Source: a virus. From it: DNA of 29,046 bases. Shown piece after piece: positions 8,319 to 28,909 of the stretch. Made by a program: the position numbers and the translations under genes. Each line of letters starts with the position of its first letter. The stretch's first letter is position 1. The notes beneath the pieces are model-generated. The model saw only the letters and a program-made list of their open reading frames with translations. It ran no database searches and was not told where the DNA came from. The stretch lies in the IMG/VR virus record IMGVR_UViG_3300006845_000034, positions 1 through 29,046 of that record, one strand, 5' to 3'.

Positions 8319-8849
8319 ATGAGCACCGCTCCACAGACGTCCGTCGATGCCAAGGCCGCAGGCATCCCGGGCCAGACCTGCGGCATGGCCAACCCGCTGA
8401 TCGAGCCGGCAGTCAACGGCGAGACCAGCGCGTCAATCCCGTTCGGCGTGATGGTTCAGCAGTCCGCACAGGGTGAGGTCAAGCTTCTCACCGGCGGCAC
8501 CAACAAGATGGCCGGCATTGTCGTTCACGACAATGACCTCAACCGCGGTACGCAGGTCGACGACCTCGGCGTGATGATCGACGCGATGTGCTCGATCGCC
8601 CGCCGCTGGCGCGGCTACGTGCTGATCGAGGTCACGGTCGCGGTCGGCGACGCGGTTCGCACGCGTCACACCGCGACCGGCAACGAGCAGGCCGGCGCCT
8701 TCCGCAACACCGCGGACGTCACCGACTGCTTCAACCTGTCCTCGGTCGCATCGTGGCGCGAAGGCGGCACGGCGAGCGGTTCCCCGGCACGCGGCGTCGC
8801 GCTGCTGGAGATCGACATGACCAACGCGGCGCTCATCGCCTCCGACTGA
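8319..8849 (+). CDS. Structural cement / capsid decoration protein
   Basis: This encodes 176 residues, with a good ribosome site GGAGAGGA at 8301-8308. The pattern GIPGQTCGMANPLIEPAVNGETS, then IPFGVMVQQSAQGEVKLL, then AGIVVHDNDLNRG, matches the structural cement protein group (gp24-like) that binds the capsid outer surface. Its place between protease and major capsid genes is usual for phages with the DUF2213-cement-DUF2184 order. The fold is beta-rich without signal or membrane segments. I am confident of the family and less sure of its detailed role in this virion. Confidence 0.8.
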   Translation: MSTAPQTSVDAKAAGIPGQTCGMANPLIEPAVNGETSASIPFGVMVQQSAQGEVKLLTGGTNKMAGIVVHDNDLNRGTQVDDLGVMIDAMCSIARRWRGYVLIEVTVAVGDAVRTRHTATGNEQAGAFRNTADVTDCFNLSSVASWREGGTASGSPARGVALLEIDMTNAALIASD

Positions 8850-8878
8850 TCCACCCAAGAGCAAGGACCAGCACGCCA

Positions 8879-9937
8879 ATGCGCACCCAGCACCAGCCAA
8901 TCGGTCGGCTCGACGCGAGCGACGTCGCCTACCTGTATCGTCAGCTCGCTCAGTTCGAGTCGATCGCGCGCGGAGAGATCAACGTCCGCGCGGACGGCTC
9001 TCGCATCGACGCCAACGAGACCGCGTTCCTGCAGCGCGAGCTCCTGGCCGTCGATCCGACGCAGTACCAGGAGCTGTTCGGTGCGCTGCTCGGTCGGCGG
9101 TACGTTCCGCTGATCACGGGCATCCCCGAGCACAAGATGGCCTACTCCTACAAGATGTGGACGGTTGTCGGCAAGGCCAAGAAGGGCACCGCCCAGGGCA
9201 CGACCGACCAGTCGTTCAAGGTCACGGTCAAGGAGAAGCCGTCGAGCATCGTCGCGATCCCGGGCATGATCGAGTACACGGTCGACGAGATCAAGGCGGC
9301 TGCGGCCGAGGGCGTCCCGCTCGAGCCGATGACGATGATCGCGGCCCACTCGGGCCTCGAGACGGTCGTCGACACGATGCTCGCAGTCGGCGACTCGGAC
9401 ATCGGCGCCGAGGGCCTGCTGAACGCGACCGGCGTGAACAGCACAACCCCGGCGACGAAGACGGCCGGCGGCACCACGTGGGCCGTCGCGACGCCCGCCG
9501 AGATCCTCGCCGACATCTTCAAGATGCTCGGCGAGCTCCTCGACGCGATGTCGCAGGCGTCGGCGGATGGTGGCCTCGCGCCGCCGACGTTCACGAAGTT
9601 CGTGCTGCTCGTCCCCGTGAAGCAGCACACGCTGTTGCTCAAGCCGCGCAGCGACAACAGCGACAAGTCGATCAAGGCATGGCTGCTCGAAAACCTGATC
9701 GAGCACATCGAGGCGATCGAGCCTTGGTACAAGTGCAAGGGCGCTGGTGCCGGCGCGACCGACCGCGCGGTCATGTACCCGCGCAACCTGCAGGCGCTCG
9801 GCACGGTGATCAACCAGGAGTTCTCGACGCTCGCCGCGCAGGCCGTCGGGCACAAGATCCAGATCCCCTGCCAGATGAAGTGCGGTGGCGTGAGCTGGAA
9901 GTACAAGGTCGCCGCGCGCTACATGGACGGCATCTGA
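8879..9937 (+). CDS. Major capsid protein (DUF2184)
   Basis: This encodes 352 residues. The ATG at 8879 follows AAGGA at 8863-8867; a longer open frame extends back to 8588 but overlaps the cement gene. Recognisable family segments include RRYVPLITGIPEHKMAYSYK, then IPGMIEYTVDEIKAAA, a long helix EILADIFKMLGELLDAMS, and MYPRNLQALGTVINQEF, in the manner of DUF2184 coat proteins with an HK97-like fold. It forms the icosahedral shell and should be the most abundant protein made. A strong intrinsic terminator follows at 9973. No separate scaffold gene is present, since the scaffold is probably the C-terminal half of the protease gene. Confidence 0.88.
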   Translation: MRTQHQPIGRLDASDVAYLYRQLAQFESIARGEINVRADGSRIDANETAFLQRELLAVDPTQYQELFGALLGRRYVPLITGIPEHKMAYSYKMWTVVGKAKKGTAQGTTDQSFKVTVKEKPSSIVAIPGMIEYTVDEIKAAAAEGVPLEPMTMIAAHSGLETVVDTMLAVGDSDIGAEGLLNATGVNSTTPATKTAGGTTWAVATPAEILADIFKMLGELLDAMSQASADGGLAPPTFTKFVLLVPVKQHTLLLKPRSDNSDKSIKAWLLENLIEHIEAIEPWYKCKGAGAGATDRAVMYPRNLQALGTVINQEFSTLAAQAVGHKIQIPCQMKCGGVSWKYKVAARYMDGI

Positions 9938-10023: not shown

Positions 10024-10704
10024 ATGACCAGGATCAGCAGCAAGGTTGGAGACGGCATCGCGATCGCCAGCGCTGTCACGGCGCTCGCGCTTCCGCCAGG
10101 CACCAACGTCGCCATCGTCAGCCACTGGAACAACGACGACATCGGGTCGGTGCCAAAGTTCGACATCGAGATCTGGGCAGACGGCGCGCGCGCTCTGAGC
10201 AACGCCACGCTCTACGGCGCGCACCTGCACCCGCTGGTGTTCGCCGACATCACCGTCACGGCGAGCAACGCCACCAACGAGTTCGCCGCCACGGCGCACG
10301 CGCGTCTTACCGGAGACGGCCCCGCGTTCCTGACCACGACCGGCACGTTTCCGGGCGGCACCGATGGCGTGACCCCGTACTACGTCGTCGAGGGTTCGGA
10401 CGCGAACCATTTCAAGATCGCGCCGACGCGCAACGACGCGCTGCTCGGCACCAACCTGATCGACCTCACGTCGGACGGCACGGGCACCATCAAGCTGATC
10501 GACGATCCCCTCACGATGCGCGTGCACTGGCACTCGCACGGCCTGCTCGGTCTGCTCGACGACGGGGCGATCGACCTGACAGCACAGAAGTCGTACATGA
10601 CGCGCGGCCGGCACTCGCCGCGCGCGTTCGCGTACGCGATCGAGGCATCCTTCGGAGCCGGCTCAGGCGCGGTGAGCGCCCGGCTCTACCCGATCGAGGA
10701 CTGA
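10024..10704 (+). CDS. Beta-rich structural protein after the capsid gene
   Basis: This encodes 226 residues with a strong ribosome site GGAGGA at 10011-10016, 7 nt before the ATG. Residues about 85-160 hold a module with TGDGPAFLTTTGTFPGG, then TPYYVVEGSDANHFKIA, then ALLGTNLIDLTSDGTGTI. This resembles a small beta module that recurs in many phage structural proteins (TGDGPxxLxTTGTLPxG ... YxVxxxDxxxFKLA). The C terminus RHSPRAFAYAIEASFGAG is also virion-like. The exact role is unknown: head decoration, neck or minor capsid are all possible. It is the first gene after the terminator, and its strong ribosome site may compensate for reduced transcription. Confidence 0.7.
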   Translation: MTRISSKVGDGIAIASAVTALALPPGTNVAIVSHWNNDDIGSVPKFDIEIWADGARALSNATLYGAHLHPLVFADITVTASNATNEFAATAHARLTGDGPAFLTTTGTFPGGTDGVTPYYVVEGSDANHFKIAPTRNDALLGTNLIDLTSDGTGTIKLIDDPLTMRVHWHSHGLLGLLDDGAIDLTAQKSYMTRGRHSPRAFAYAIEASFGAGSGAVSARLYPIED

Positions 10705-15161: not shown

Positions 15162-17561
15162 GTGTCGTTCGACTACACCATCAAGGCCGACGGATCTCAG
15201 GCGCAGCAGACGAACGAGAAGGTCACTGACGGCCTGCGCCGTATCGAGAGCGCTGCGGCGCGAGCTGGCGTGGCGATCGGCGGCATGGCCAAGTCGGCGG
15301 CAACCCCGGTCGACGGCCTTACGCGGGCGCTTCGCGCCGAGCAGGAGGTGCTCGAGCGCATCCACGGCCCGCTGCAGCGCTACCAGACCGACCTCGGCGC
15401 GCTCGACAAGCTGTACCGGCAGAACATCATCTCCGTCCAGGAGTACAACCGCGAGCTGGAGGCGATGAATCGCCGGCTGACCTCGGCGCGCGGCGGAAGC
15501 GCGCCGTCCGCACCTGTGCCGGCGCGCGGTGGCGCCAGCGGCGGAGGCGCGGGACTCGCGACCGCGGCGGCCGGGTACCTGACCGCCGGAGCTGCGGTCG
15601 GCGTCGGCAGGGAGATCCTCGACCTCGCCGGCTCGTATCAGCAGCTCGAGAACCGCTTCCGCTCGGTGGCGACAACGCAGGGCGAACTCAACAAGCTGAT
15701 GGACAAAACGCACGGCATCGCCGACCGCACGCGCTCGGACTGGGGCGCGACCGGCGAGGCGTTCGTGCGGATGACGCGCGTGACGAAGGATCTCGGCCTG
15801 TCGCAGGATCGCGTGCTGCGCGTAACCGAGACGCTCGCGAAAGCAACCAAGCTGCAGGGCGCGACGTCCGAGGAAGCATCGGCGTCGATGATCCAGCTAT
15901 CGCAGGCGCTACAGAGCGGCGTGCTCGCGGGCGACGAGTTCAAGTCGCTCAGCGAGAACATGCCCGAGCTTCTCAACAAGATCGCCGAGACCATGGGCGT
16001 GCCGCGGTCGGCGCTGAAGAAGCTCGCGTCAGAGGGCAAGGTCACGTCCGACATCGTCATCAAGTCGATCGAGGGCATGGCCAACGACGTCGACATCGCG
16101 TTCGGCCGGATGAAGCCGACGCTCGCCGACGCGTGGACGAAGTTCAAGAACGACACGACCGAGACCGCCGGCAAGATGCTCGAGAACAGCAACGTGATGG
16201 AGGTGCTGACGAAGGCGATCACGGCGATCGCGCAGGGCTTCAAGGATCTGGCCGGCGTGCTCGGTCCGCTGATCAACGTCGCCGGCAAGGTCGTCGGCGT
16301 CTTCTCGGACATCAAGGACGCGCTCGGTCCCGTCGGCACCGCGCTCGACTACCTCACGAGCCCGCTGAAGCTGGCGAGCAAGACCATCAGCCTGCTCGGA
16401 GACGCCTGGGACTACGTCAACGGTAAGCAGGTCAACTGGCTCGAGCAGGTGCAGCAGATCAACGTCCGCGCTGAGACGATGCGGTCGCTGGCCGAGCGCG
16501 GCGAGAAGGCGTGGCGCGGGTTCGGTGACGCGATCGCCGACATCGCCGGCTCGGTGGTCAAGGCCGGCGACGCGATCGACAAGTTCTTCGAGCCCGGAAA
16601 CAACCGCGCGTTCTTCGGTCTCGGCGACGAGCTGGGGACGACGAGCTTCTCGAGCTTCAAGCGAAACAACGACGAAGTGAAGGCGATCGAGGATCGCCGG
16701 AAGGCCGCATCGGCGGCGCAGCGCAAGTTCATGGAGGAGACGCGCGAGTTTCGCAGGCTGCTCGAAGAGGGCACCGTTCGGAAGAAGCAGGGCGCGTCGG
16801 TCGTGCCGGCGGAGATCCAGGCCGAGTACGACGCGGCCGAGCGCCTGTTTCACCTCGAAGAGGAGCTCGCCGAGGCGTCACGAAAGGCCATCGCCGACCA
16901 GCAGCCCGACCTTGCCGCCGACCTTGCGGCGTACGACAAGATGCGCGAGGCGACGTTCCGCTGGAAGATGGAGCTGCAGTCGCTGAAGAAGGACGGTTTC
17001 GACGAGCTACGCAAGGGCGCGGTCGCCGGCCTCAACGAGATCAAGTCGGAGATCTTCGACATCTCGACCGTCGAGGTCGAGGCGATGAAGAACGCGTTTC
17101 GCGGCATCGAGGACAACCTGGTCGAGGCGTTTCGCGGCGGCAAGACGGCGTGGGCCGAGCTGGCGAAGGCGATCGAGGGCGACCTGCTGCGCATCGCGCT
17201 TCGGCTCGTCGAGATGCGGCTCATCATGCTGGCCGGCGGCGGTGGTGGCGCTGGCGCTGGTCTCGGCGGCAGCACGTTCCTCACGATGGGCGGCAACCAC
17301 GCCACCGGCGGTTCGTACACCGAGCGCCGCGCCGGCGGCACGGACTCGCACATGGTGATGTTCCGCATGTCGACCGGCGAGCGCGCGGACTTCGTGCCAC
17401 GCGGTACCAGCGGCGGCGGCGCGGCCAGCGTCGTCAACCACATGGTGTTCGACCCGCGCCAGCTGACCGGCTACATCGGGACGGCCGCTGGACAGCGGGC
17501 CGTGTTCAGCGTTATCAAGAGCAACCCGCGGGCCTTCCGCGCAGCCCTGGAGCGAGCGTGA
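15162..17561 (+). CDS. Tape measure protein
   Basis: This encodes 799 residues from a GTG. Residues about 159-305 match the tape measure N-terminal domain (TIGR02675) closely: SYQQLENRFRSVATTQGELN, DRVLRVTETLAKATKLQGAT, SMIQLSQALQSGVLAGDEF and ENMPELLNKIAETMGVPRSALKKLASEGKV. An Ala/Gly-rich hydrophobic part (about 126-155) precedes it, and long helices follow. The C terminus has the Gly-rich FLTMGGNHATGGSYTERRAGG and GERADFVPRG often seen in this family. I see no cysteine in it. At about 0.15 nm per residue the tail would be near 120 nm. It sets tail length and is ejected ahead of DNA. No peptidase motif is evident in the protein itself. Confidence 0.93.
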   Translation: MSFDYTIKADGSQAQQTNEKVTDGLRRIESAAARAGVAIGGMAKSAATPVDGLTRALRAEQEVLERIHGPLQRYQTDLGALDKLYRQNIISVQEYNRELEAMNRRLTSARGGSAPSAPVPARGGASGGGAGLATAAAGYLTAGAAVGVGREILDLAGSYQQLENRFRSVATTQGELNKLMDKTHGIADRTRSDWGATGEAFVRMTRVTKDLGLSQDRVLRVTETLAKATKLQGATSEEASASMIQLSQALQSGVLAGDEFKSLSENMPELLNKIAETMGVPRSALKKLASEGKVTSDIVIKSIEGMANDVDIAFGRMKPTLADAWTKFKNDTTETAGKMLENSNVMEVLTKAITAIAQGFKDLAGVLGPLINVAGKVVGVFSDIKDALGPVGTALDYLTSPLKLASKTISLLGDAWDYVNGKQVNWLEQVQQINVRAETMRSLAERGEKAWRGFGDAIADIAGSVVKAGDAIDKFFEPGNNRAFFGLGDELGTTSFSSFKRNNDEVKAIEDRRKAASAAQRKFMEETREFRRLLEEGTVRKKQGASVVPAEIQAEYDAAERLFHLEEELAEASRKAIADQQPDLAADLAAYDKMREATFRWKMELQSLKKDGFDELRKGAVAGLNEIKSEIFDISTVEVEAMKNAFRGIEDNLVEAFRGGKTAWAELAKAIEGDLLRIALRLVEMRLIMLAGGGGGAGAGLGGSTFLTMGGNHATGGSYTERRAGGTDSHMVMFRMSTGERADFVPRGTSGGGAASVVNHMVFDPRQLTGYIGTAAGQRAVFSVIKSNPRAFRAALERA

Positions 17562-18277
17562 CCGAGCAGACCGAACCACCGTGGGCGCGTCCGGTGCCGA
17601 TGCCTGACCGTCCGATCCACGTCAGCCCGAACGTGGTCGACCATCGCCGACGCACCGCGGCAACGCATGCTGGGGCCGCCGGCGGCGGCGCCGTGGCCGG
17701 CGCGATCGCTGCCTGCGTCGCCGTGCATCCCGGGCCGGTGACCGACCGCGACCTCGACCTGTACGAGCTGACGAGCGTGACGCTCGACCGCGTGCAGGGC
17801 TTCTGGCAAGGCCAGATGCCCGACGGCTGGCGCGACGCCCGAGTGGTCCTGACGGCCGAACTGGGCGAGACAACCCCGTGCGGGCGCGCAGACGCCGCGA
17901 GCGGGCCTTTCTACTGCCCGGCCGACCGGAAGGTCTACCTCGACCTGACCTTCCTACGAGCGATTCAGGGCGACCTGGCGCGCGCGTACGTGATCGGTCA
18001 CGAGGTCGGGCACCACGTCCAGGAGCTGCAGCGCGCGGCCGTGACGGACGTGGAGATCGAGCTCGAGGCTGACTGCCTCGCGGGCCGCTGGATCGCCAGC
18101 GAGCTGGCGGCGGGGCGCGTCAAGGACCAGGACGTAGAGCTGGCGCTCGCCGAGGCTGCGGCTGTCGGTGACGACCGGATCTGCCCGAGCTGCTCGCCGG
18201 AGTCGTGGACGCACGGCTCAAGCGCGCAGCGTGTCGCCGCGGTCAAGCGCGGCATGGAGGAACTCAAGTGCAGGTAA
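17558..18277 (+). CDS. Neutral zinc metallopeptidase, YpfJ family
   Basis: This encodes 239 residues. The GTG at 17558 overlaps the tape measure stop as GTGA. Residues about 38-56 are hydrophobic (AGAAGGGAVAGAIAACVAV), a possible membrane anchor with a lipobox-like IAAC, but 38 residues precede it. The rest matches YpfJ-type Zn peptidases (PF04228): SGPFYCPADRKVYLDLTFL, then YVIGHEVGHHVQ (H148-E149-x2-H152), then ELEADCLAG (E170 as probable third ligand), then AAAVGDDR and PESWTHGSSAQRV. All catalytic residues are present. E. coli YpfJ is somewhat longer at the N terminus. Substrate and location are not known; in this slot it could be a tail-tip enzyme for peptidoglycan or envelope protein, or a moron expressed in the host. 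Confidence 0.85.
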   Translation: MTEQTEPPWARPVPMPDRPIHVSPNVVDHRRRTAATHAGAAGGGAVAGAIAACVAVHPGPVTDRDLDLYELTSVTLDRVQGFWQGQMPDGWRDARVVLTAELGETTPCGRADAASGPFYCPADRKVYLDLTFLRAIQGDLARAYVIGHEVGHHVQELQRAAVTDVEIELEADCLAGRWIASELAAGRVKDQDVELALAEAAAVGDDRICPSCSPESWTHGSSAQRVAAVKRGMEELKCR

Positions 18278-19362
18278 GCAATGTGACGAAGGCGAGGATC
18301 AAGGCCGGCGCGATCGTGGCTGGCGTGCTGCTGCTGGTTGCGGCGTCGGTGTTAGCCGTGCCGCAGCAGCGGCGCAGCATCCAGGGCGCGGATCAGATGG
18401 TGCTGAACGGCGGCGGGCTCCGCAAGGTCTTCACCAACTCTGCCGGAGTGCTCGGCGGGTCGGGCACCAGCGGCAACCCGCTGACCGTGACGATCTCGCA
18501 GGGCTCTGGCCTCGCGGGAACCGGCTCGAGCGGTGACGCGCTCGCGACCGACACGACGTCGAGCTTCAACTATGTCTCCGGCAAGCTCGCGATGCCGAAC
18601 GACTACGCGGCGACGCACATGGAGTGGGTCGACGAGTTCATGTACGGCGCAGGCACCGTCGCGAACGACGCCAAGGTCGGAATGCTGTGGGGCGCGAACG
18701 TCTCGAGCGGAACCTTCTCAGGCAACGCGACCGGCACGACGACCAGGCCGGGCATCGGCGAGCTCGGCACGGGCACCACGACCACCGGACGCATCGCGCT
18801 GACGACCGGAACCAGCCACCTCGACTTCGGGTCAGGGACCTGGAACTTCCAGTGGACGGGCGGATTCCCGACGCTGTCGACCGGCGCCGAGGAGTACGCG
18901 ACCGTCGTCGGGTTCCTCGACAACTCTGGCGCCGTGAACCAGGTCGACGGCTGCTACTTCCTGTATGACCGCGGCAACGTCGCGACGTCGGGGCCGAACA
19001 CCGGCAACGCCGACAAGCTGTCGTGCTGGTGCGCATCGAACAGCAACCGCACCACGTTCCTGATGGACGGCACGACCGTCTCGAACGAGTCGTTCACGAC
19101 GGTGAACGCGCCGGTCGCGGCGCTGACGCTGCCGAGCACCAACATCTACTCGCTGGAGGTGCGCATGACCGGCACGACGCGCGCCGAGTTCTTCGTCAAC
19201 GGTACCAAGAGCTGCAACATCAACACGAACATCCCGAGCGGCGCGACGCGACTGCTCGGCGCGGGGATGCTCATCATCAAGTCGGCAGGCACGACGGCAA
19301 GACAGGTCGATGTCGACCGCGCGAAGCTGGCCGTTGACCTGACCGCAGCGAGGTCGCCGTGA
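18268..19362 (+). CDS. Lectin-like (concanavalin-fold) tail fibre protein with N-terminal hydrophobic segment
   Basis: This encodes 364 residues. The GTG at 18268 follows GGAGGAA (18256-18262) and overlaps the peptidase gene by 10 nt; the 18205 start is rejected because it overlaps more. Residues 8-12 are basic (KARIK), and 13-31 are hydrophobic (AGAIVAGVLLLVAASVLAV), like a signal peptide or anchor. After a Gly/Thr/Ser linker, residues from about 112 resemble the jelly-roll lectin domain of phage fibres (MEWVDEFMYGAGTV, GRIALTTGTSHLDFGSG, YSLEVRMTGTTRAEFFVNG, VDVDRAKLAVDLTAAR). Four cysteines cluster around GCYFLYD, KLSCWC and KSCNI. It likely binds host glycans. Export of such a protein through Sec would be unusual for a tail component. 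Confidence 0.7.
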   Translation: MQVSNVTKARIKAGAIVAGVLLLVAASVLAVPQQRRSIQGADQMVLNGGGLRKVFTNSAGVLGGSGTSGNPLTVTISQGSGLAGTGSSGDALATDTTSSFNYVSGKLAMPNDYAATHMEWVDEFMYGAGTVANDAKVGMLWGANVSSGTFSGNATGTTTRPGIGELGTGTTTTGRIALTTGTSHLDFGSGTWNFQWTGGFPTLSTGAEEYATVVGFLDNSGAVNQVDGCYFLYDRGNVATSGPNTGNADKLSCWCASNSNRTTFLMDGTTVSNESFTTVNAPVAALTLPSTNIYSLEVRMTGTTRAEFFVNGTKSCNINTNIPSGATRLLGAGMLIIKSAGTTARQVDVDRAKLAVDLTAARSP

Positions 19363-22250
19363 AGCTCAGCCGACCGAAGATCGCCGGCCTCACGGCCGCC
19401 TTTGCCGTCATACTCGGCATTGTCGCGCACTGCACAGGCGTGTCGCCGACCAGCCCGCGCGGCATCTCGAGCCCGGTGTTCTCGACCGTCGGCCTGCGTC
19501 GCACCATCGACGTGACGGCGTACGGCGCGAAGGGCGACGGATCGACCGACGACCGCGTATCGATCACGTCGGCGATGTCCGCCGCGTGCGCGGCCGGCGC
19601 AACCGACCTGTTCTTCCCGCCTGGCGTGTACATCGTGTCCCGCAACGGCTCGAGCGCGTTCTCGATCGATATGAGCTGCGGCGACATCGCGTGGACGGGA
19701 ATCCGCGATCGATCGATCATCAAGCAACCGACGGGCATGCCGGATGCGGCCGTGCCGATCATTCGCGTCGACGCGAAGAAGAACGTCACGTTCAGCGGCC
19801 TGGTGCTCGACGGCAACTGGGGGAACTGCGTCACGCGGGTCACCTCGGCGTCCAACGGCGTGGCACTCAACGGTGCTGGCACGATCAACGTCGACGACGC
19901 GTCGTGCTTTCCGGCGGGCACGTTCTTCGCGGTCATCACCGACACGGCCGGCACCGAGTTCCTCTCGTGCACGGGCAAGACAGGCACGACGCTCACCGGG
20001 TGCACGGCGAGCGGCACGCTCGGCGGGTCGGCGATCGGCACGCTTTTTACGGACCAGCGCATCGGGTACGTGATCTCCCAGGCGGGCATCAACCACTCGA
20101 CGCAGGCGCCGACCGGGCACACGACGACCATCGCGTCTGGGTCCAACGGTGCGGTGCTTCCGCAGGCGACGATCAACGTCGTCAGCACGACCGGGTTCGC
20201 GTTCCAGTCCGGTGAGACGCTCTGGATCAGGACGTCGCTGGGCTACCAGCTCGTCACGTGCACGGGCACGTCGGGCGGCACTCAGTTTACCGGATGCAGC
20301 GGCGGCATCGGTACACTGACGACCGGCAACGAGGTCTACAACGGCACGACGAACGCATCGAACCACGGCATCATGGTTCGCGGCTCGCAGAACGTCCTCA
20401 TCGAGAACGTTCGCATGCGGCAGATCTACGGCGACTGCATGTGGATCGGCGCTGCGTCGACATCGGCTGTCGGCAACCACTCGCGAAACATCCGCGTCAA
20501 GAACGTCAACTGCGAGATCGTCGCCCGCAACGGCATCTCGCTGATCGGCACCGAAGACGTTGTCATCGACGGGTTCTACACGCTGAACGTCAAGGCTCAG
20601 GCGATCGACGCCGAGCCGGTCAACATCCACAACCGAGCTGTGTTCGTCACGAACAGCGTGCTCGACACGTGGTTCGAGAAGGAGATCACGCACGGCGGTA
20701 ACCCGCTGTCGATCGTCGGCGGAAAGAACCTTGCGACGGCGAGCGGGTCTGATTCCGCGCGCGGGTGGCGCGTCACTGGAAATCTGATCCGCGGCACCGT
20801 GTACATCGAGAAAACGACCGACGTGGTGTTCTCGAACAATCGCGTCGTCCTCGACTACGGTACGCCCATCGACGGCGACCCTGATCTCGCCGGCGGCGCC
20901 GGCGTGCTCGCCGAGATGGGAAATAACCACCTCGAGATCACCGGGAACTATATCTACTCGCGGCCGAGCTCGTCCGGCGCGGAGGGCGGTGCCGACACCG
21001 CGGCGCTGGCGATCTGGACGTACCAGAGCGGCTCGCTCCGCATCGAGCCGTCGAACGTCATCATCGCGAACAACAAGATCGAAGCGCGCAACGCGCGCAG
21101 CGCCATCATGGTCAAGGGCGCGGGCGGCGCGATCAGCGGCGACAGCGGAACGTCGACGGCGATCGACAACGTCACGCTGACCGACAGCACGAAGTCGTGG
21201 ACCACGAACCAGTGGCAAGGGTTCATGGTGCAGACCGGCAGCGTGATCGGCACGGTGGCGAGCAACACGGCGACCGCGCTCACGCTCAATCGATTCACGA
21301 TCGGAACATCGGGCGCCTGCACGACCACCGTCGGCGCAACGTGCTCGGCCGCGTGGCTCGATGGACTCGGCAACCAGGCAACCACGCCTCCGACCGGCAC
21401 CTATCAGATCTACCGCCAGACCGGCGTGATCGACATCTTCAACAACGAGCTTGACCTCACCGAGGACGGACGCGGCAAGGGCAAGTGGGGCGTGAACATC
21501 ACGAACGGCCCGAACAATGCGACGGGCATGCGCGTGCGCGTGCGGAGCAACAAGATCCGCAACTGCGACACGTACGCGATCCGTCTCCGCTTCGACGGCA
21601 CGACGCCGTACCCGCTGCTCGAGGTCACCGATAACTTCGCCTGGGACGATCTGCCGACGCACACGTGCACGAACCTGCTGCGGTTCGAAAACGCGATCCT
21701 GGCGACGAAGTTCATCATGTCCGGGAACGTCAAGGGCGAGGGCGTGACGAACATGCAGAGCGGCCTGAGCGCGGGCACGTGGCTCGTGCGCGACGGCCTG
21801 GTTCAGGCGTGGGCTGGCTACGGATCGCCGGAGGGCGTCGTCACCGCGCCTGCAGGCTCGACGTATCAGCGGCTCGACGGCGGCATCGGCATCAGCCACT
21901 ACACGAAGGACACCGGCTCGAGCAGCACAGGGTGGAAGGATCGCGGCACGCTGTCGATCCTGTCCACCATTGGACACCACACGACGACCGGAACGTCGCC
22001 CGGCGTGACGTCGTGTGGAACCGGCGCGAGCATCGTTGGCGACGACTACGCGGGAACCGTCACCGAGGGCACGGGCGCGAGCGGTTGCACGCTCACGTTC
22101 GGTACGACGTACACGACGCGTCCGAGCTGCCAGCTCTACAACGAAGACAACCTCGGATTTACCTCGGCAGCCACGGCGACCACGCTCACCATCACCAATG
22201 TCGGCGCGCTGTCCAGCAAGCGCATCGACTACGTCTGCTTCGGCCACTAA
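19359..22250 (+). CDS. Tailspike with pectate-lyase-like beta-helix, N-terminal hydrophobic segment
   Basis: This encodes 963 residues from a GTG that overlaps the previous stop as GTGA. Residues 8-23 (IAGLTAAFAVILGIVA) follow a basic start (MKLSRPK) and precede C25, giving a signal- or anchor-like N terminus. From residue 49, IDVTAYGAKGDGSTDD and FFPPGVYIVS match the start of phage Pectate_lyase_3 beta-helices. Two inserted modules with LSCTG..LTGCT and VTCTG..FTGCS are tandem copies of a small beta module common in phage fibres. Later segments (VTGNLIRG, SNNRVVLDYG, ITGNYIYS, IANNKIEARN) are the rungs of the helix. The C terminus holds a Cys-paired domain ending DYVCFGH. The whole protein has about 19 cysteines. 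It probably degrades or binds host surface polysaccharide. Confidence 0.85.
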   Translation: MKLSRPKIAGLTAAFAVILGIVAHCTGVSPTSPRGISSPVFSTVGLRRTIDVTAYGAKGDGSTDDRVSITSAMSAACAAGATDLFFPPGVYIVSRNGSSAFSIDMSCGDIAWTGIRDRSIIKQPTGMPDAAVPIIRVDAKKNVTFSGLVLDGNWGNCVTRVTSASNGVALNGAGTINVDDASCFPAGTFFAVITDTAGTEFLSCTGKTGTTLTGCTASGTLGGSAIGTLFTDQRIGYVISQAGINHSTQAPTGHTTTIASGSNGAVLPQATINVVSTTGFAFQSGETLWIRTSLGYQLVTCTGTSGGTQFTGCSGGIGTLTTGNEVYNGTTNASNHGIMVRGSQNVLIENVRMRQIYGDCMWIGAASTSAVGNHSRNIRVKNVNCEIVARNGISLIGTEDVVIDGFYTLNVKAQAIDAEPVNIHNRAVFVTNSVLDTWFEKEITHGGNPLSIVGGKNLATASGSDSARGWRVTGNLIRGTVYIEKTTDVVFSNNRVVLDYGTPIDGDPDLAGGAGVLAEMGNNHLEITGNYIYSRPSSSGAEGGADTAALAIWTYQSGSLRIEPSNVIIANNKIEARNARSAIMVKGAGGAISGDSGTSTAIDNVTLTDSTKSWTTNQWQGFMVQTGSVIGTVASNTATALTLNRFTIGTSGACTTTVGATCSAAWLDGLGNQATTPPTGTYQIYRQTGVIDIFNNELDLTEDGRGKGKWGVNITNGPNNATGMRVRVRSNKIRNCDTYAIRLRFDGTTPYPLLEVTDNFAWDDLPTHTCTNLLRFENAILATKFIMSGNVKGEGVTNMQSGLSAGTWLVRDGLVQAWAGYGSPEGVVTAPAGSTYQRLDGGIGISHYTKDTGSSSTGWKDRGTLSILSTIGHHTTTGTSPGVTSCGTGASIVGDDYAGTVTEGTGASGCTLTFGTTYTTRPSCQLYNEDNLGFTSAATATTLTITNVGALSSKRIDYVCFGH

Positions 22251-22263
22251 GGAGCACCAGACC

Positions 22264-22977
22264 ATGCGCCTGAACGAATCGAACGTATTGCTCCGAGAGG
22301 TGAGCGTTCGCCTGCTGAATCCGTCGACAGGCGCTCCGGTGCCAGGCAAGTCGCAGGCGAACGTCACCATCAAGACGGCCAAGCCTGGCGCCAATCTGGT
22401 TGCGTCGTCAGCGACGTTGACCGAGGTCACCGGCGGCGTGTCCGGCGGCGGCTATCGGTTGCGGTTCACGACGGGCGAGGTCGACACGCTCGGCGAGCTC
22501 CACTACGAGATCACCGACGCCAGCATCCAGCCGGTCTACGACGCGGTGACGATCGAATCGCCGTTCCGTGCGCTCGACATCGACGCCGCGGCGATCACCG
22601 CAGCGAAGTTTGCGGCCGACGCGATCGACGCGAACGCGCTGAAGACCGACGCGATCGACGAGATCAAGGCGGCAGTCGCCACGGCCGTCTGGGCAGGCGC
22701 GGTGTCGAGCAACCGGCCGGCCGGCTCGATGGGCGAGATCCTCCAGGTGCTTGCGGGCATCCTGCGAAACAACGTGCTGATCGATAACCCGACGTACGGC
22801 ACGAACAACCTGCTTACCGCTGCCCGCGTCCGCGTGTTCGCCAACGCGGCGGACTGCAACGCGGCGACGCCCGGAGCGGGCGGAGACGAGGGGGCGATCT
22901 TCAAGTTCTCGATCAGCGCCGACGACGCGCTGAACGGCGGCCGCTTCAACAGCTGGAAGCAGACGAGGACGCTCTAA
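22264..22977 (+). CDS. Tail fibre / baseplate-type protein
   Basis: This encodes 237 residues. I chose the ATG at 22264 because it follows GGAG at about 22251 and starts a protein (MRLNESNVLLREVSVRLLNP) with a typical beta N terminus; the long upstream frame overlaps the tailspike gene. Residues 10-100 are Ig-like beta (GYRLRFTTGEVDTLGELHYE). Residues about 108-140 are a low-complexity helix of DAAAITAAKFAADAIDAN type that recurs in phage fibres and probably forms a trimeric coil. The rest is helical and then beta. The assignment rests on composition and location after the tailspike. Confidence 0.65.
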   Translation: MRLNESNVLLREVSVRLLNPSTGAPVPGKSQANVTIKTAKPGANLVASSATLTEVTGGVSGGGYRLRFTTGEVDTLGELHYEITDASIQPVYDAVTIESPFRALDIDAAAITAAKFAADAIDANALKTDAIDEIKAAVATAVWAGAVSSNRPAGSMGEILQVLAGILRNNVLIDNPTYGTNNLLTAARVRVFANAADCNAATPGAGGDEGAIFKFSISADDALNGGRFNSWKQTRTL

Positions 22978-22980
22978 GCC

Positions 22981-23826
22981 ATGACCATGGGCCTCGCCAC
23001 AGTCGGCTACGCAACGCCGACGCCGCCGACGCCGGCGGGCGGCGCGTCTGGCGTGCGGTTCTACTTCACGATGGTTGACGAGAACACCGGCGCGCTGACG
23101 TCCGGCCTCACCATCAGCGCGTCGGAGCTGCAGCTCTCGATCAACGGTGCCGCGTTCGGGGACCGAGTCGGCGCGACGCCGACCAGCATCGGCTCAGGCT
23201 GCTACTACTACGTCCTCGACAGCGCCGAGGCGATCGCCGGCGCGACGGTACTCTTCAAGATCAACAAGACCGGGTACAAGGACTCGGCCGGCCAACCAAT
23301 CATCCAGAAGTTCGTTGTCGACACGCTGGTCGGCGAGGCGCAGAGCGCGATCCTCGCGGCGCTGACCTCGTCGGTGGCTGCCGTGCTCGCCAACCAGTCC
23401 GCGAACGTCACGTCGATCAACTCGAACACCGACTCGGAGATCGCCGCGGCCATCACGGCGATCAACTCGCACACCGACACGAAGGTCAGCGAGTCCGAAG
23501 GCGTCATCACTGATGCCATCGACGATATCCCGACGGCCGCGGAGATCGACGCGCAGCTCTCGGCAGCGCACGGCGCAGGCACGTGGGGAACCGCGGGACT
23601 CGACGTCAATGCCATCGTGACGGCGGTGTTCAACGCGCTTGTCGAGGGCTCGGTCACCTTCGGTGACTCGGTGCGCGCCCTGCTGTCGCTGACCGGCGGG
23701 CCTGTCGGCGACTTCAACACCGGAACGCTGGTGTTCAAGTCGCTCAACGGCGCGAAGACCAGGCTCACGATCACCACGGACGATTCTGGTCGTCTCGTTA
23801 CGACGATCGGAGACCTCTCGCCGTGA
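22981..23826 (+). CDS. Tail fibre protein
   Basis: This encodes 281 residues and starts 3 nt after the previous stop. Residues 20-115 are a beta domain (GVRFYFTMVDENTGALTSGL). From about 120 to 180 the sequence is a helical coil with INSNTDSEIAAAITAINSHTD repeats, typical of trimeric fibres. The motif PTAAEIDAQLSAAHGAGTWG, followed by small C-terminal beta strands, recurs in many phage fibre or baseplate proteins. The likely role is a short fibre or fibre attachment protein; host specificity cannot be read from it. Confidence 0.7.
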   Translation: MTMGLATVGYATPTPPTPAGGASGVRFYFTMVDENTGALTSGLTISASELQLSINGAAFGDRVGATPTSIGSGCYYYVLDSAEAIAGATVLFKINKTGYKDSAGQPIIQKFVVDTLVGEAQSAILAALTSSVAAVLANQSANVTSINSNTDSEIAAAITAINSHTDTKVSESEGVITDAIDDIPTAAEIDAQLSAAHGAGTWGTAGLDVNAIVTAVFNALVEGSVTFGDSVRALLSLTGGPVGDFNTGTLVFKSLNGAKTRLTITTDDSGRLVTTIGDLSP

Positions 23827-25880
23827 GGGCTCGGTTCTGGGGACCGATGTTCCCAGACGGCCGGCTTCACATGTTCGCGAGGCCGGCCGTGCCGGCGACG
23901 CTGCGCCTCGGCGACCCGGTGACCGCACCAGACGGACCGCTCGAGAACGTTTCGCTCCGCGCGCGCAGCGCAGGCACGGCAGGCAACGGCATCAAGGTCA
24001 CGTTCGACGAGAGCGCGCTGACCGAGAGCGGCGAGATGCAGGAGGACACGATCGCCCGCACGGTGCTGATCCGCTTCATCGGCGACGCGACCACAACCGA
24101 CGACCTGTTCGCGCTGCTGAATAACAGCGAGCTGGTCGAGATGATCGGCACCTGGAACGCGACGGACACGCTGCGCGCCACCGACGACGAGTTCGAGGAC
24201 GCGATCCTGACCGGCGGCGTCAACGCGGGCGCTGGCCGTGCCACGTTCTGGGGCCCGCACTTCCCTGATGAGCCAACCACCGGCACGTCGGGTCGCGTGA
24301 TCCCGGTCGGCCCGGCTGGCGCGGCGACGTTCGCGTTCGTGATCGAGTCTGGCGGCTCCGTCAAGTGGACGTGGGAGTCGGCACTGTTCAAGGCGCTCTC
24401 TGGCGCCGAGCGACGCGCCAGCAGCGTGGATCTGCCGGCGGCGAGCTACGCCGGCCAGGTGCATCTGATCGACGAAGACCCGCGGTTCGTGCGCAACCAG
24501 CTCCGCCGGTACGCCGCGCAGGGCGCGCCGTTCTTTCTCGGGCTGCCGTTCGAGGAGGTGCTCGCGACCGGAGAGAGCGACGGCCCATTCGTTCCTGTCG
24601 GCGAAACGTCGATGCTCGACTGGGCTGTGCCTGGCACGACCGTGCTGATCATCTCGGAGGACGAGGCAGAGGCTCACGTCGGCGTGATTCAGCTCGTCAC
24701 GGTCGACACGATCGAGCTGGACGGTGACGTGCCCGAAGGGCTGTGCTTCGAAGGCGCCCGCGTCATGCCGGCGGTCGCCGTCTACCTCGATCCCGAACAG
24801 GGCTTTATCCGTTACTCGAACCCGGACGCGGTCGAGACGTGGAACCTGTCGGCGCACGGCGCTAACCTCGGGTACCCGACCAGCGACGTGCCGGCGTTCC
24901 TGCGCATCGTCGAGTACCTCAACGATGACTCGCCGCTGTTCAGCATGACCATCGTGGCAAAGACGCCCGGGCCGGCAGGCAACTCGATCCAGGTACAGCT
25001 CGCCGGCGACTCCGGCGGCGGCGTGACGATCGACGACGACGGCCTGAGTCCCGTGGTCGCGCACTACGAGGACGGCGTGACCACAGCCGGCGAGCTCGTT
25101 GACGCGCTCGACGCGGAGTCGTTCCGCGTGCGAATGGTCGGCTCCTACGACCGCGACGCCGTGCTGGACGCGTCGCTCAACGAGTTCGGACCGGCTCCGC
25201 TGGAGAACGGCGCGCTCTCGGGCCCGGGCACGTTCGGCAAGGGCGTATTGCTGTTGACGTTCGACGGCCGGCCGATCTGGGATCGCGGCATCGACGTGAG
25301 CGACGAGGCGTCCGACACGGTGCACTCGATGGCTCAGCGCGCGCCGGTCGGCCCGCTCCCGGTGGTGTTCGGAACCACGGACGTTCCCGACGACGGTCGA
25401 CAGCTGAAGTACGGCAACGACGTCGGGCCGGAGCTGCAGTGGCTCAAGGCGTTCTTTGCGTACGCGCACGGGCGCGCGCGGTCGTGGTGGCTGCCGACGT
25501 TCCGGCACGACCTCGACGCAGCGGCCGAGGGACCGCAGGGCGCGACTCCGGTCGTCGGCGGCACGGTTGACCACGCGTACCGCGCGCAGATCATCGTCGA
25601 CTCCGAGGCCGGAGACTTCGACCTGTGGTTCGGTCGCCTGTACATGCTCCGCGTCGCGCTGGCCGACGAGACCGAGTTCTATTGCCAGGTGATGTCGGCG
25701 ACCGACAACCTCGACGGCACGCGCACGCTGGTCGTCGAGGCGAGAAGCTTCCCGCCGTCGCAGGGCATCGCGATGATCTCCTGGATGCAGCTCTGTCGGT
25801 TCGAGGCTGACGAGCTGGAGGTGTCGTTCTCGGGCGGCACGTTCAGCTACGACGGCGTCGCGAGAGGAGTGCAGCAGTGA
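23823..25880 (+). CDS. Distal tail (Dit-like) protein with duplicated internal domain
   Basis: This encodes 685 residues from a GTG that overlaps the previous stop (GTGA). Residues about 41-137 and 371-463 are two copies of a roughly 95-residue module: ENVSLRARSAGTAGNGIKV and MTIVAKTPGPAGNSIQV, each followed by a TT-x-(D/G)ELxxxL helix and an acidic turn. Between and after them lie beta segments such as FVIESGGSVKWTWESA and LPTFRHDLDAAAEG, with the C-terminal YRAQIIVDSEAGDFDLWFGRLYML. The architecture fits the large distal tail proteins of siphophages just before a BR0599 protein and the hub. It would form the ring at the tail end. Confidence 0.7.
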   Translation: MRARFWGPMFPDGRLHMFARPAVPATLRLGDPVTAPDGPLENVSLRARSAGTAGNGIKVTFDESALTESGEMQEDTIARTVLIRFIGDATTTDDLFALLNNSELVEMIGTWNATDTLRATDDEFEDAILTGGVNAGAGRATFWGPHFPDEPTTGTSGRVIPVGPAGAATFAFVIESGGSVKWTWESALFKALSGAERRASSVDLPAASYAGQVHLIDEDPRFVRNQLRRYAAQGAPFFLGLPFEEVLATGESDGPFVPVGETSMLDWAVPGTTVLIISEDEAEAHVGVIQLVTVDTIELDGDVPEGLCFEGARVMPAVAVYLDPEQGFIRYSNPDAVETWNLSAHGANLGYPTSDVPAFLRIVEYLNDDSPLFSMTIVAKTPGPAGNSIQVQLAGDSGGGVTIDDDGLSPVVAHYEDGVTTAGELVDALDAESFRVRMVGSYDRDAVLDASLNEFGPAPLENGALSGPGTFGKGVLLLTFDGRPIWDRGIDVSDEASDTVHSMAQRAPVGPLPVVFGTTDVPDDGRQLKYGNDVGPELQWLKAFFAYAHGRARSWWLPTFRHDLDAAAEGPQGATPVVGGTVDHAYRAQIIVDSEAGDFDLWFGRLYMLRVALADETEFYCQVMSATDNLDGTRTLVVEARSFPPSQGIAMISWMQLCRFEADELEVSFSGGTFSYDGVARGVQQ

Positions 25881-26710
25881 CCTGGGACAGCCTGATTTCC
25901 AGCATCGAGGACAGCGCGCAGCGCGAGTGCTACGAGGTCGTGGCCGGGGCGATCATCTATCGCTTCGTGCGCAGCGACCGCAACGCGAACATCGGCGGCT
26001 TCACGTACGAGAAGACCTCCGTCGAGCGCAGCGAGGTATCGACGCCGACGCTCAACGGACGGAAGCAGCTCACGTTCACGCTCGCGCTCGACCATGCGTT
26101 CGTGCAGCGCTGGTTTCAGCAGGCGATCCCGCCGGCGGCCTACGTGAACATCATCTCGGTCCAGCAGAGTGACAGCTCGAGGCAGCGGATCTTCTCGGGA
26201 GAGATCGTTGCGTGCGAGGTGCACAGCACGCGCGACGGCGTGGCCACGTTCACGGCGATCTCTCGGATGGAGCTGGCGCTCGGCCGGCGCCTGCCGACGG
26301 TCAGCGTCGGGCGCCAGTGCCCGCACGTGCTGTACGACTTCGGCTGCAAGCTGAACCGCAACGCGTTCCGCGTGGTGACCACGGCACAGATCGTGAACGG
26401 CCCGTTCGTCACGGTGCAGACGATGAGCGGTCACCCTGATGGCTGGGCGAAGTTCGGCGAGCTGCTGCACGTCCCGAGCGGAGATCGCATGCCGATCCGC
26501 GATCAGGTCGGCGCGCTGGTCACGCTGCAGCTGCCGATCGTCGGGATGCAGACCGGCGACCAGGTGCAGGTGTTCGCGGGATGCGCGCACGACGCGCAGA
26601 CGTGCTCGACGAAGTTCGACAACATCCTGAACTTCGGTGGCTTCCCCGAGCTGCCGCGGGCGAACCCGTTCATCCCGAACGGGCTTGGCATCTACACGAG
26701 CGAGGGCTGA
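25877..26710 (+). CDS. Tail protein, phage BR0599 / DUF2163 family
   Basis: This encodes 277 residues from a GTG with GAGGAG just upstream. The family signature is clear: GRQCPHVLYDFGCKLN, then GDQVQVFAGCAHDAQTCSTKF, then NILNFGGFPELPRANPF, with conserved Cys that may bind an ion. The N terminus (AIIYRFVRSDRN..., then RKQLTFTLALDHAFVQRWF) follows the DUF2163 layout. This protein occurs between the distal tail and hub genes in many siphophages and gene transfer agents, where it forms part of the baseplate core. Confidence 0.88.
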   Translation: MTWDSLISSIEDSAQRECYEVVAGAIIYRFVRSDRNANIGGFTYEKTSVERSEVSTPTLNGRKQLTFTLALDHAFVQRWFQQAIPPAAYVNIISVQQSDSSRQRIFSGEIVACEVHSTRDGVATFTAISRMELALGRRLPTVSVGRQCPHVLYDFGCKLNRNAFRVVTTAQIVNGPFVTVQTMSGHPDGWAKFGELLHVPSGDRMPIRDQVGALVTLQLPIVGMQTGDQVQVFAGCAHDAQTCSTKFDNILNFGGFPELPRANPFIPNGLGIYTSEG

Positions 26711-26711
26711 G

Positions 26712-28331
26712 ATGGCCTGGGACCTTGCGATCGGCGCGGGCATCATCCTTCTCGACGCCGCGTACCACCGATGGATCAAGCATGACTCGACGCCAAAGCC
26801 GAAGCCCGAGCGCGAGATCTCGCTACCGCGCACCGACGACGGCGCCGTGGTGCCGCTGGTCTGGGGACGCGACCGCGTTCGCGCTCCTGTACTGGCGTGG
26901 ACCGGAGATCCTGCGGCCGTGTCGAACCCGCCGATCGACGCGAGCGATCCACCGCCGGGCTTTCTCTACACGCTCGACATGTTCTTCGCCGTCGCGATCG
27001 GCTTCGAGGACGGCGACAACCGCCTGCATCGCATGTGGACGGGCGAGTTCGAGCTTGCTCCGTACGCGCCTGGTTCCGGCCTCGGCATCTCGAACTTCCA
27101 GGTCGCCAGCCTGTCAGAGCTGACCGGCGAAGGGAACTTCGAGAGCACGTCGCGCGTCGCCTGGGTCGGGACCAGCCAGTTCGTCTCGCCGGGATCGACG
27201 GCGCGCGTCGACGACACGCATCAGTGGGTCGACGGCCAGATCGAGTTTCTCAACGGCTCGGCGATCCAGACGTTGACGGACCCGCCGCCGCCGCACGCGG
27301 CGCGCTGCAAGGCCACCGAGGCGATGATCAGCGCCGGCGTGGATCCCGCGTTGATCCCGTCGTACCGCAACTATATGTGCGTGTACCTGTACCGGCCTTC
27401 GCTCGGCGGCGACGGCACCACGCGATGGCACATCGGGTTCGCGCCGACCGTGCAGGCGTACAGCTTCGAGGTGTCGTCGTACCCGACGCTGCAGTTGCAT
27501 GCATCGTATCCGCTGAGCGACGCGATCGTCGGGCTCGAGGCGAACCCGGCGTACGTGCTCGCGGACCTGCTGCGCGCGCGCTTCGCGAAGCTCGGCTTGC
27601 AGTCGTGGCAGATCAACGCGCTCTCGTTCGCGCAGGCGGCAGCAACGCTGAAGGCCGAAGGCCACGGGTACTCGCGCGTGGTAGACGGACAGCTCGATGC
27701 CGAGGAGCTGATCAGTGACATCGCTCGGCAGATCGACTGCGCGTTCTACGAGGACCCGTTTACCAGCACCATCAGCATCAACCTGGTGAGGCAGAACTAC
27801 GACCCGGCGACCATCAAGCTGATCACCACGAGCAACTGCGACGACATCACCAACCTGACCTCGACCGGCCGTGACAGCGCGCTGCCCAACAAGGTGCGCG
27901 TCGTCTACTCGAGCCGGCAGAAGCGCTACGAGGACGACAGCGAGTCGGCTCACAACCTGGCAAGCGCCAGCGGACAGAGCGGCGTCGCGCAGGAGCTCGT
28001 GCTTCGGTTCCCCGGGATCAAGACGGCAGTGTTGGCGGCAGCCGTTGCCTCGCGCGAGCTGAGCGCGCGGTCGCGTCCGCTGGCGAAGTGCCGGGCGATC
28101 TGCGACCGCCGGCTGATTCGCCTGATCCCGGGCGAGCCGGTCGCCGTGACGTGGCCGAAGCTGACGTGGGACGGCGTGATCTTCCGCGTGGCTCAGGTGT
28201 CGCCGATGAGCGGGCTCGAATCGAACCACGTCGCCGTGGATCTTATCCAGGAGTTTTCGTACGTTCACCGCGGGGCTGTCGTCGGCCAGGGCGGCACCGT
28301 CGGCTCCTTCCCTACGACCGCCGAACCTTGA
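26712..28331 (+). CDS. Tail hub / tip protein
   Basis: This encodes 539 residues. The ATG at 26712 lies 1 nt after the previous stop; the longer reading from 26637 lies in the BR0599 gene. Residues 2-20 begin hydrophobic (MAWDLAIGAGIILLDAAYHR). Then comes LPRTDDGAVVPLVWGRDRV, a common hub beginning. The later segments NPAYVLADLLRARFAKLGLQ, EELISDIARQIDCAFYED and LPNKVRVVYSSRQKRYEDD match the beta-barrel and helical parts of hub proteins of the Phage-tail_3 type. The end has low-complexity RGAVVGQGGTVGSFPTTAEP. It forms the closed tip that contacts the tape measure and opens for ejection. Confidence 0.8.
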   Translation: MAWDLAIGAGIILLDAAYHRWIKHDSTPKPKPEREISLPRTDDGAVVPLVWGRDRVRAPVLAWTGDPAAVSNPPIDASDPPPGFLYTLDMFFAVAIGFEDGDNRLHRMWTGEFELAPYAPGSGLGISNFQVASLSELTGEGNFESTSRVAWVGTSQFVSPGSTARVDDTHQWVDGQIEFLNGSAIQTLTDPPPPHAARCKATEAMISAGVDPALIPSYRNYMCVYLYRPSLGGDGTTRWHIGFAPTVQAYSFEVSSYPTLQLHASYPLSDAIVGLEANPAYVLADLLRARFAKLGLQSWQINALSFAQAAATLKAEGHGYSRVVDGQLDAEELISDIARQIDCAFYEDPFTSTISINLVRQNYDPATIKLITTSNCDDITNLTSTGRDSALPNKVRVVYSSRQKRYEDDSESAHNLASASGQSGVAQELVLRFPGIKTAVLAAAVASRELSARSRPLAKCRAICDRRLIRLIPGEPVAVTWPKLTWDGVIFRVAQVSPMSGLESNHVAVDLIQEFSYVHRGAVVGQGGTVGSFPTTAEP

Positions 28332-28693: not shown

Positions 28694-28909
28694 GTGCGCG
28701 AGAAGCCCTACTCCTGCTCGAACTGCGGGCAGCCGGGCCACTCGCGGAGAACCTGCGGCCGGACGCCCGAGGAGCGCGCCGAGCGTCGCGGGGCGCAGCT
28801 GCCGGTCCCGAACGGCGCGAGCGCCCGTCGGATCCGCGAGCCCCGACCGGGCGACCGCGTCGAGACGATTCCCGGTGTGGACGTGTACGCGACGTTCCTG
28901 ATCGAGTAA
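28694..28909 (+). CDS. Small CCHC zinc knuckle protein
   Basis: This encodes 71 residues from a GTG. Residues 8-21 read CSNCGQPGHSRRTC: C8-x2-C11-x4-H16-x4-C21, exactly the retroviral-type CCHC zinc knuckle, with the usual G-x2-G-H. The rest is Arg-rich (PEERAERRGAQ, SARRIREPRPGDR) and then a short beta end (VDVYATFLIE). The pattern and third-position GC support real coding. Zinc knuckles bind single-stranded nucleic acid; the role in a phage here is unknown, perhaps RNA or DNA binding during the lytic cycle. No strong Shine-Dalgarno is visible. Confidence 0.7.
   Translation: MREKPYSCSNCGQPGHSRRTCGRTPEERAERRGAQLPVPNGASARRIREPRPGDRVETIPGVDVYATFLIE

Follow-up and report, generated by a model that had tools for sequence, protein, structure and literature searches.

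Organization of the late region

The window analyzed here, a stretch of 29,046 bases of viral DNA with a GC content of ~67%, covers a head-to-tail late region of a tailed phage, in which genes for a portal, a major capsid protein, a tail tube, a tape measure, a phrog_1082 protein, a phrog_778 protein and a Phage-tail_3 hub were recognized. The matches of the portal among phages are distant and mixed. Between the tape measure gene and the next tail genes lie three consecutive, overlapping genes on the plus strand, encoding a zinc metallopeptidase, a predicted lectin protein and a beta-helix spike (Table 1). The GTG start of the peptidase gene overlaps the stop of the tape measure gene, and the lectin and spike genes join in a GTGA overlap. 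No promoter was found inside the cassette, where terminator-like sites are no commoner than expected by chance. Because the frames overlap and no internal promoter was found, the cassette is probably expressed late, together with the tail. The two genes that follow occupy, by position, the place of two structural genes in KL1-type phages, and Pfam and PHROG searches gave no match for the product of the first. The core tail gene order (phrog_1082, phrog_778, Phage-tail_3) is identical to that of KL1/YuA-type siphophage tails; in the latter, however, the tape measure and phrog_1082 are separated by a pair of structural genes, without any gene that looks exported. Peptidase, lectin and spike are extra to the core tail-tip genes of phages such as KL1. 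The earlier note on this DNA had described three consecutive tail-tip genes: the genes are indeed consecutive and overlapping, but 'tail-tip' is a positional label, and a role at the tip is unproven.

Table 1. Tail genes of the window in and around the three-gene cassette (positions in the window).
Feature	Position	Strand	Basis and remarks
Tail tape measure protein	15162..17561	+	Pfam TMP_3 E 2.3e-56, PHROG tape-measure matches; upstream border of the cassette
Neutral zinc metallopeptidase (PF04228)	17558..18277	+	135.1 bits vs cut-off 23.2; HEVGHH at 148-153; 7 Cys
Concanavalin-A-like lectin protein (predicted)	18268..19362 (alternative start GTG 18283)	+	AlphaFold2 model, Foldseek, relatives
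Beta-helix (pectate-lyase/epimerase-like) spike	19359..22250	+	PF12708, PHROG tailspikes, AlgE6/AlgE4, crAss001 gp22; 19 Cys
237-aa protein, no signal	22264..22977	+	ORF, Shine-Dalgarno-like AAGGAG; downstream border of the cassette
281-aa protein	22981..23826	+	Position relative to KL1-type operons
Tail assembly protein (phrog_1082)	23823..25880	+	E 1.1e-25
Tail assembly protein (phrog_778, BR0599)	25877..26710	+	E 2.4e-49
Tail hub protein (Phage-tail_3, phrog_1101)	26709..28331	+	Profile matches

Export-like N termini

Until the cell lyses, phage tail proteins are expected to remain cytoplasmic. When the highest 19-residue Kyte-Doolittle value was taken for each of the 29 genes of the window, the top three values belonged to the lectin (2.63, residue 13), the spike (2.02, residue 8) and the peptidase (1.78, residue 38). 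The tape measure came fourth with 1.72, so that the peptidase is marginal by Kyte-Doolittle alone. The probability of the three highest values falling by chance on neighboring genes is 27/3654 = 0.007, a post hoc figure. In all three proteins basic residues lie upstream of the hydrophobic segment, and all have, at the level of sequence, the basic n-region followed by a hydrophobic core of a Sec signal or anchor: the lectin with an n-charge of +3 and a core (KD12) of 3.05, the spike with +3 and 2.68, and the peptidase with a core of 2.50 from residue 45, after HRRR. The hydrophobic N-terminal stretches that the earlier note had assigned to these three genes are thus the strongest of the window, each preceded by basic residues. 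Signal calls here and in the relatives were made with a simple home-made rule rather than a predictor of the SignalP class; in the window it marks one further gene (10024-10704), weakly. A standard lipobox ([LVI][ASTVI][GAS]C just past the core) is absent from all three proteins; the spike has V-A-H-C, with His at -1, the lectin has no Cys there, and in the peptidase I-A-A-C matches the pattern, yet at residue 53. The hub protein of the window has a mild hydrophobic stretch at its N terminus, without a basic n-region.

The peptidase belongs to PF04228 (YpfJ family), as judged by its above-cut-off profile match and HExxH motif. Its hydrophobic stretch (residues ~38-61) is the weakest of the three. 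Two phage relatives (L005 and L007) likewise have a basic stretch followed by a hydrophobic segment, so the N-terminal anchor appears to be ordinary for the family. What sets the window gene apart is its place within a tail operon; the homologue of Rhodococcus phage Weasels2 lies near lysin A.

The spike is matched by PF12708 just above the cut-off (28.4 vs 27 bits) and by PHROG tailspike families (E 2.4e-8 to 7.8e-6). Its first part resembles both tailspikes and secreted mannuronan C5-epimerases (AlgE6/AlgE4), with which it shares the start of the beta-helix (IDVTAYGAKGDG), the catalytic or binding domain of tailspikes; crAss001 gp22 was also matched. The PHROG match starts at spike residue 47-50 against profile position 120-186. 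Only ~47 residues precede the beta-helix, and in place of the N-terminal virion-anchoring domain of tailspikes there is a signal-like segment. Scans of viral contigs and phages found no full-length relative of the spike.

The lectin protein and its relatives

The AlphaFold2 model of the lectin protein (mean pLDDT 65) consists of an N-terminal helix (5-29), a disordered linker (29-113) and a beta-sandwich (117-358), the latter mostly at pLDDT 70-90. The best Foldseek match of the domain is SO2946 of Shewanella (2a5z, E 1.9e-8), and SraP, legume lectins and ERGIC-53 are also matched (probability 1.00), so that the predicted structure is a beta-sandwich matching solved lectins of the concanavalin-A-like type. 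By profile search the domain was found in a set of viral contigs, in two metagenome-assembled genomes and in phage Pan5. Five close lectins, those of the window and of contigs L002, L003, L056 and L057, all start with a basic n-region and a hydrophobic core, and these N termini do not align with one another. The L002 and L003 lectins, with differing signal sequences, come from contigs in which no tape measure like that of the window could be detected. Basic residues are also present downstream of the hydrophobic segment in the window and L003 lectins, from which one could assume that these are uncleaved anchors.

Signals are found as well in distant, Bacteroidota-like lectin relatives, namely L045 (from a Chitinophagales genome bin), L011, L051 and Pan5. 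The same contigs have runs of signal-bearing genes in the tail region (L045, 2959-9237; L011, 2725-9541; L051, 3834-9844; Pan5, L006, 3568-7612), three to five genes long in the first three and two genes long in Pan5; among the products are a beta-helix protein in L045 and, in Pan5, one that is heparin-lyase-like. That such runs are a general trait of Bacteroidota phages was considered and rejected, as the fiber and baseplate proteins of crAss001, B40-8, RAP44 and FCL-2 are without them. In Riemerella phage RAP44 a lipoprotein-like signal is carried by an Ig-domain 'structural protein' whose gene (L149, 12853-13545) neighbors that of the tape measure on the opposite strand. Other lectin relatives (L012, L013, L014, L049, L050 and L052) are signal-free, like ordinary tail fibers. 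Judging from these comparisons, the lectin domain is of the receptor-binding type of tail fibers and also occurs in an exported-looking form.

The same locus in related tail operons

The nearest relatives of the window tail operon are L056 and L057, followed by L069 (40% identity); the phrog_778 proteins of the three are 36-40% identical to that of the window. No relatives were found with the phrog_1082 protein as query. Predicted exported genes lie directly 3' of the tape measure gene in all three. The order in L056 and L057 is as in the window, i.e. tape measure, lectin, small tail gene, phrog_1082-type gene, phrog_778 and hub, and both lectins begin with a canonical signal peptide (MKQYIRLALLAIATLLVVASISVAQ in L056, MRRPLVALVMGIMIGLAIVAIPSSAQ in L057). 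In L057 the lectin occupies the place of a structural protein of KL1-type phages. In L056 the lectin gene is followed by one for a 167-aa HEAGH protease-like protein (8847-9350; N terminus MRLILALALFAAC) with a lipobox-like site, whose zinc-protease-like motif (HEAGHILLNTSKH) has weak family support (phrog_87, E 0.0044; M48, E 0.022); a search of 50,697 phage records found nothing that matches this predicted lipoprotein. The interval in L056 also holds a gene for a 120-aa lipoprotein-like product (MRSILALVLFTAC), and L069 has a lipoprotein-like gene at the same spot (MKRVNLVSLALLCAAAGC). The sites in these sister phages are lipobox-like (AAGC, FTAC, FAAC) or resemble those of signal peptidase I (signal peptides ending in S-V-A or S-S-A). 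The sister phages yielded no homologue of the peptidase or of the spike.

Among the operons with a readable interval, exported-looking real genes are present in it in all four of the nearest (the window included) versus 0 of 21 others of the same tail type; in a first count the others numbered 22, with one weak rule match in L091. Since the L069 gene had been seen by reading the frames by eye and was missed by automated gene calls, a blind scan of all frames, covering all but one operon, was used to remove this bias. It gave eight matches in the four operons of the clade and four in the 21 others, all four within other genes. A one-tailed Fisher test gives ~8e-5, or 0.003 if three of the other operons are scored as positive for their spurious all-frame matches, figures that are indicative, given that several of the other operons are near-duplicates and that the test was designed after the first cases. 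In KL1, MMDA13 and Lydia the interval holds two structural genes and no signal.

At the N terminus of the hubs of KL1-type tails there is a strongly hydrophobic helix (2.8-3.1) that has no basic n-region (L042, 9814-12225; L043, 9801-12656; L044, 9824-10057); in Lydia the helix is encoded by a separate 77-aa gene.

Cysteine content

A richness in cysteine had been proposed as a sign of export, in contrast to a cysteine-free tape measure. The counts are those of the earlier note (spike 19, lectin 4, tape measure 0), with 7 in the peptidase; of the four lectin cysteines, C229, C253 and C255 are close together and C316 lies apart. As proof of export, however, cysteine richness was ruled out: the phrog_778 protein is equally rich (6 in 277 residues), and two pairs of the spike (C204/C215 and C301/C313) lie within internal repeats and may simply be a beta-structure motif. 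The one informative point, of moderate weight, is that the lectin gains and loses its cysteines in pairs. All five exported-looking lectins have C229 and C255, C253 and C316 are missing together in that of L056, and the signal-free relatives do not have the set; the paired cysteines fit two disulfides, and with them a putative oxidizing compartment. The five close lectins all keep a signal, of unrelated sequence, and their cysteines are retained or lost in pairs. The lectins of Pan5, L011 and L045 carry signals and not these cysteines, which are thus not needed for the exported form. A weak additional hint is that the numbers of cysteines outside the signal segments are even, namely 6, 4 and 18 in the window proteins and 6, 8, 6 and 12 in the lectins of L002, L003, L056 and L057, a pattern from which the L056 protease departs.

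Discussion

We favor, with a probability of roughly 55%, the view that the three genes form a Sec-exported, envelope-acting cassette inserted in the late tail operon and co-expressed with the tail. From the comparisons made, the cassette would be specific to its clade, and its export is partly supported. N-terminal signal or anchor sequences would direct the three products, translated alongside the tail proteins late in infection, to the Sec pathway. The peptidase would then be an N-terminally anchored, outward-facing zinc protease, and the lectin and the spike released or membrane-tethered proteins with disulfides that bind and act on glycans. The most likely target would be the host envelope, with surface glycans or proteins being bound, masked, trimmed or stripped, and the benefit could be that neither the producing cell nor its debris captures sister phages, or that progeny are freed. 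We infer the export itself, a location outside the virion and a purpose in shielding or stripping receptors. Against this, the lectin domain is otherwise, in the signal-free sequences at hand, a C-terminal domain of tail fibers, the position of the L057 lectin suits a virion fiber, searches of the sister phages gave neither peptidase nor spike, and the peptidase has a modest segment, well away from its start. It may still be that the lectin serves as a virion fiber, or that the spike joins virions.

The earlier note had left it between export or surface display and helices that plug into the tail tip. In the latter case lectin and spike would be ordinary tail-tip appendages whose hydrophobic helices bundle or insert into the tip, nothing would be exported and the peptidase gene would stand apart as an accessory. 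The two proteins are encoded among tail genes and have domains of receptor-binding type, and the KL1, MMDA13 and Lydia hubs demonstrate that hydrophobic N termini occur in tail-tip proteins; since they do, hydrophobicity by itself proves nothing. The features that appear to discriminate are the basic n-region, which these hub helices lack, the lipobox-like sites and signal peptides of the sister-phage genes at the same spot, and an N-terminal sequence that drifts freely, being alike in character and not in sequence, as Sec signals would be. The fiber and baseplate proteins of crAss001, B40-8, RAP44 and FCL-2 are also without such a segment. We therefore regard docking helices as unlikely; the claim of export has gained from the recurrence of exported-looking genes with unrelated N termini at the locus.

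It could also be that the lectin and the spike are moved across the inner membrane, acquire their disulfides in the periplasm and join the tails at lysis. Such exported virion fibers would unite the signals, the paired cysteines and the fiber-like domains, and in L045, L011, L051 and Pan5, where whole fiber-region runs carry signals, few other fiber candidates are left. The presence of a peptidase and of lipoproteins at the same locus nevertheless suggests envelope proteins, and we know of no tailed phage established to export its virion fibers, which makes this explanation improbable. A fuller version, in which a co-exported zinc protease processes the Sec-exported fibers or the receptor, seems very doubtful. 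Equally hard to credit is a role in lysogenic conversion, with the three as moron genes that a temperate phage expresses as a prophage to alter the host surface. The lambda Lom precedent (PMC12309495) and the accessory, variable content among sister phages may speak for it; against it, no separate promoter was found, the overlaps with the tape measure gene and among the three genes point to late co-expression, and this fragment has no integrase.

An exported, envelope-acting cassette would have counterparts among known phage proteins. Lpp021 and Lpp010 of mEpimmI phages are encoded in the structural gene cluster and exclude phages when expressed (PMC11893012), and Llp of T5 is encoded beside pb5, such proteins stopping adsorption to infected cells and fragments (PMC9586334). 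These proteins and Cor have in common that they are exported, encoded beside tail or receptor-binding genes and active at the envelope (PMC11893012, PMC9586334); the cassette lies in the structural cluster, and its products carry predicted signals and would be exported. Lpp021, Lpp010, Llp and Cor are, however, small lipoproteins blocking protein receptors, whereas the cassette products are 239-963 aa long, have no standard lipobox near the start and comprise a protease, a lectin and a beta-helix protein. Lambda Lom, a signal-peptide protein encoded between the tail spike and tail fiber genes (PMC12309495), is an outer-membrane beta-barrel, unlike the cassette proteins. What distinguishes the cassette from Lom, Cor, Llp and Lpp021 is its tail-fiber-type lectin and its depolymerase-like and protease parts. 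No such cassette was reported in the literature covered on signal peptides of tail fibers, most subscription journals being outside that coverage. The repeated presence of exported-looking lectin, protease and lipoprotein genes at one spot of the tail operon suggests a late, envelope-directed function in protecting or freeing progeny, which annotation of such genes as tail fibers would hide. Labels such as 'tailspike' and 'tail fiber', when taken from C-terminal domains, can mislead as to location.

Other features of the window

A 535-aa protein without a family match (5161-6768) contains an [AS]GI[AS]x[AV]EAFG-like motif ~12 times, a repetition visible in the protein and missed by tandem-repeat detection in the DNA. 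A 71-aa protein (28694-28909) has a zinc knuckle, CxxCxxxGHxxxxC, with zf-CCHC slightly below the cut-off. The portal gene (68-2023) encodes, in a single reading frame, a portal (PF06381) with a C-terminal inorganic-pyrophosphatase-like domain (PF18823, E 3.9e-32).
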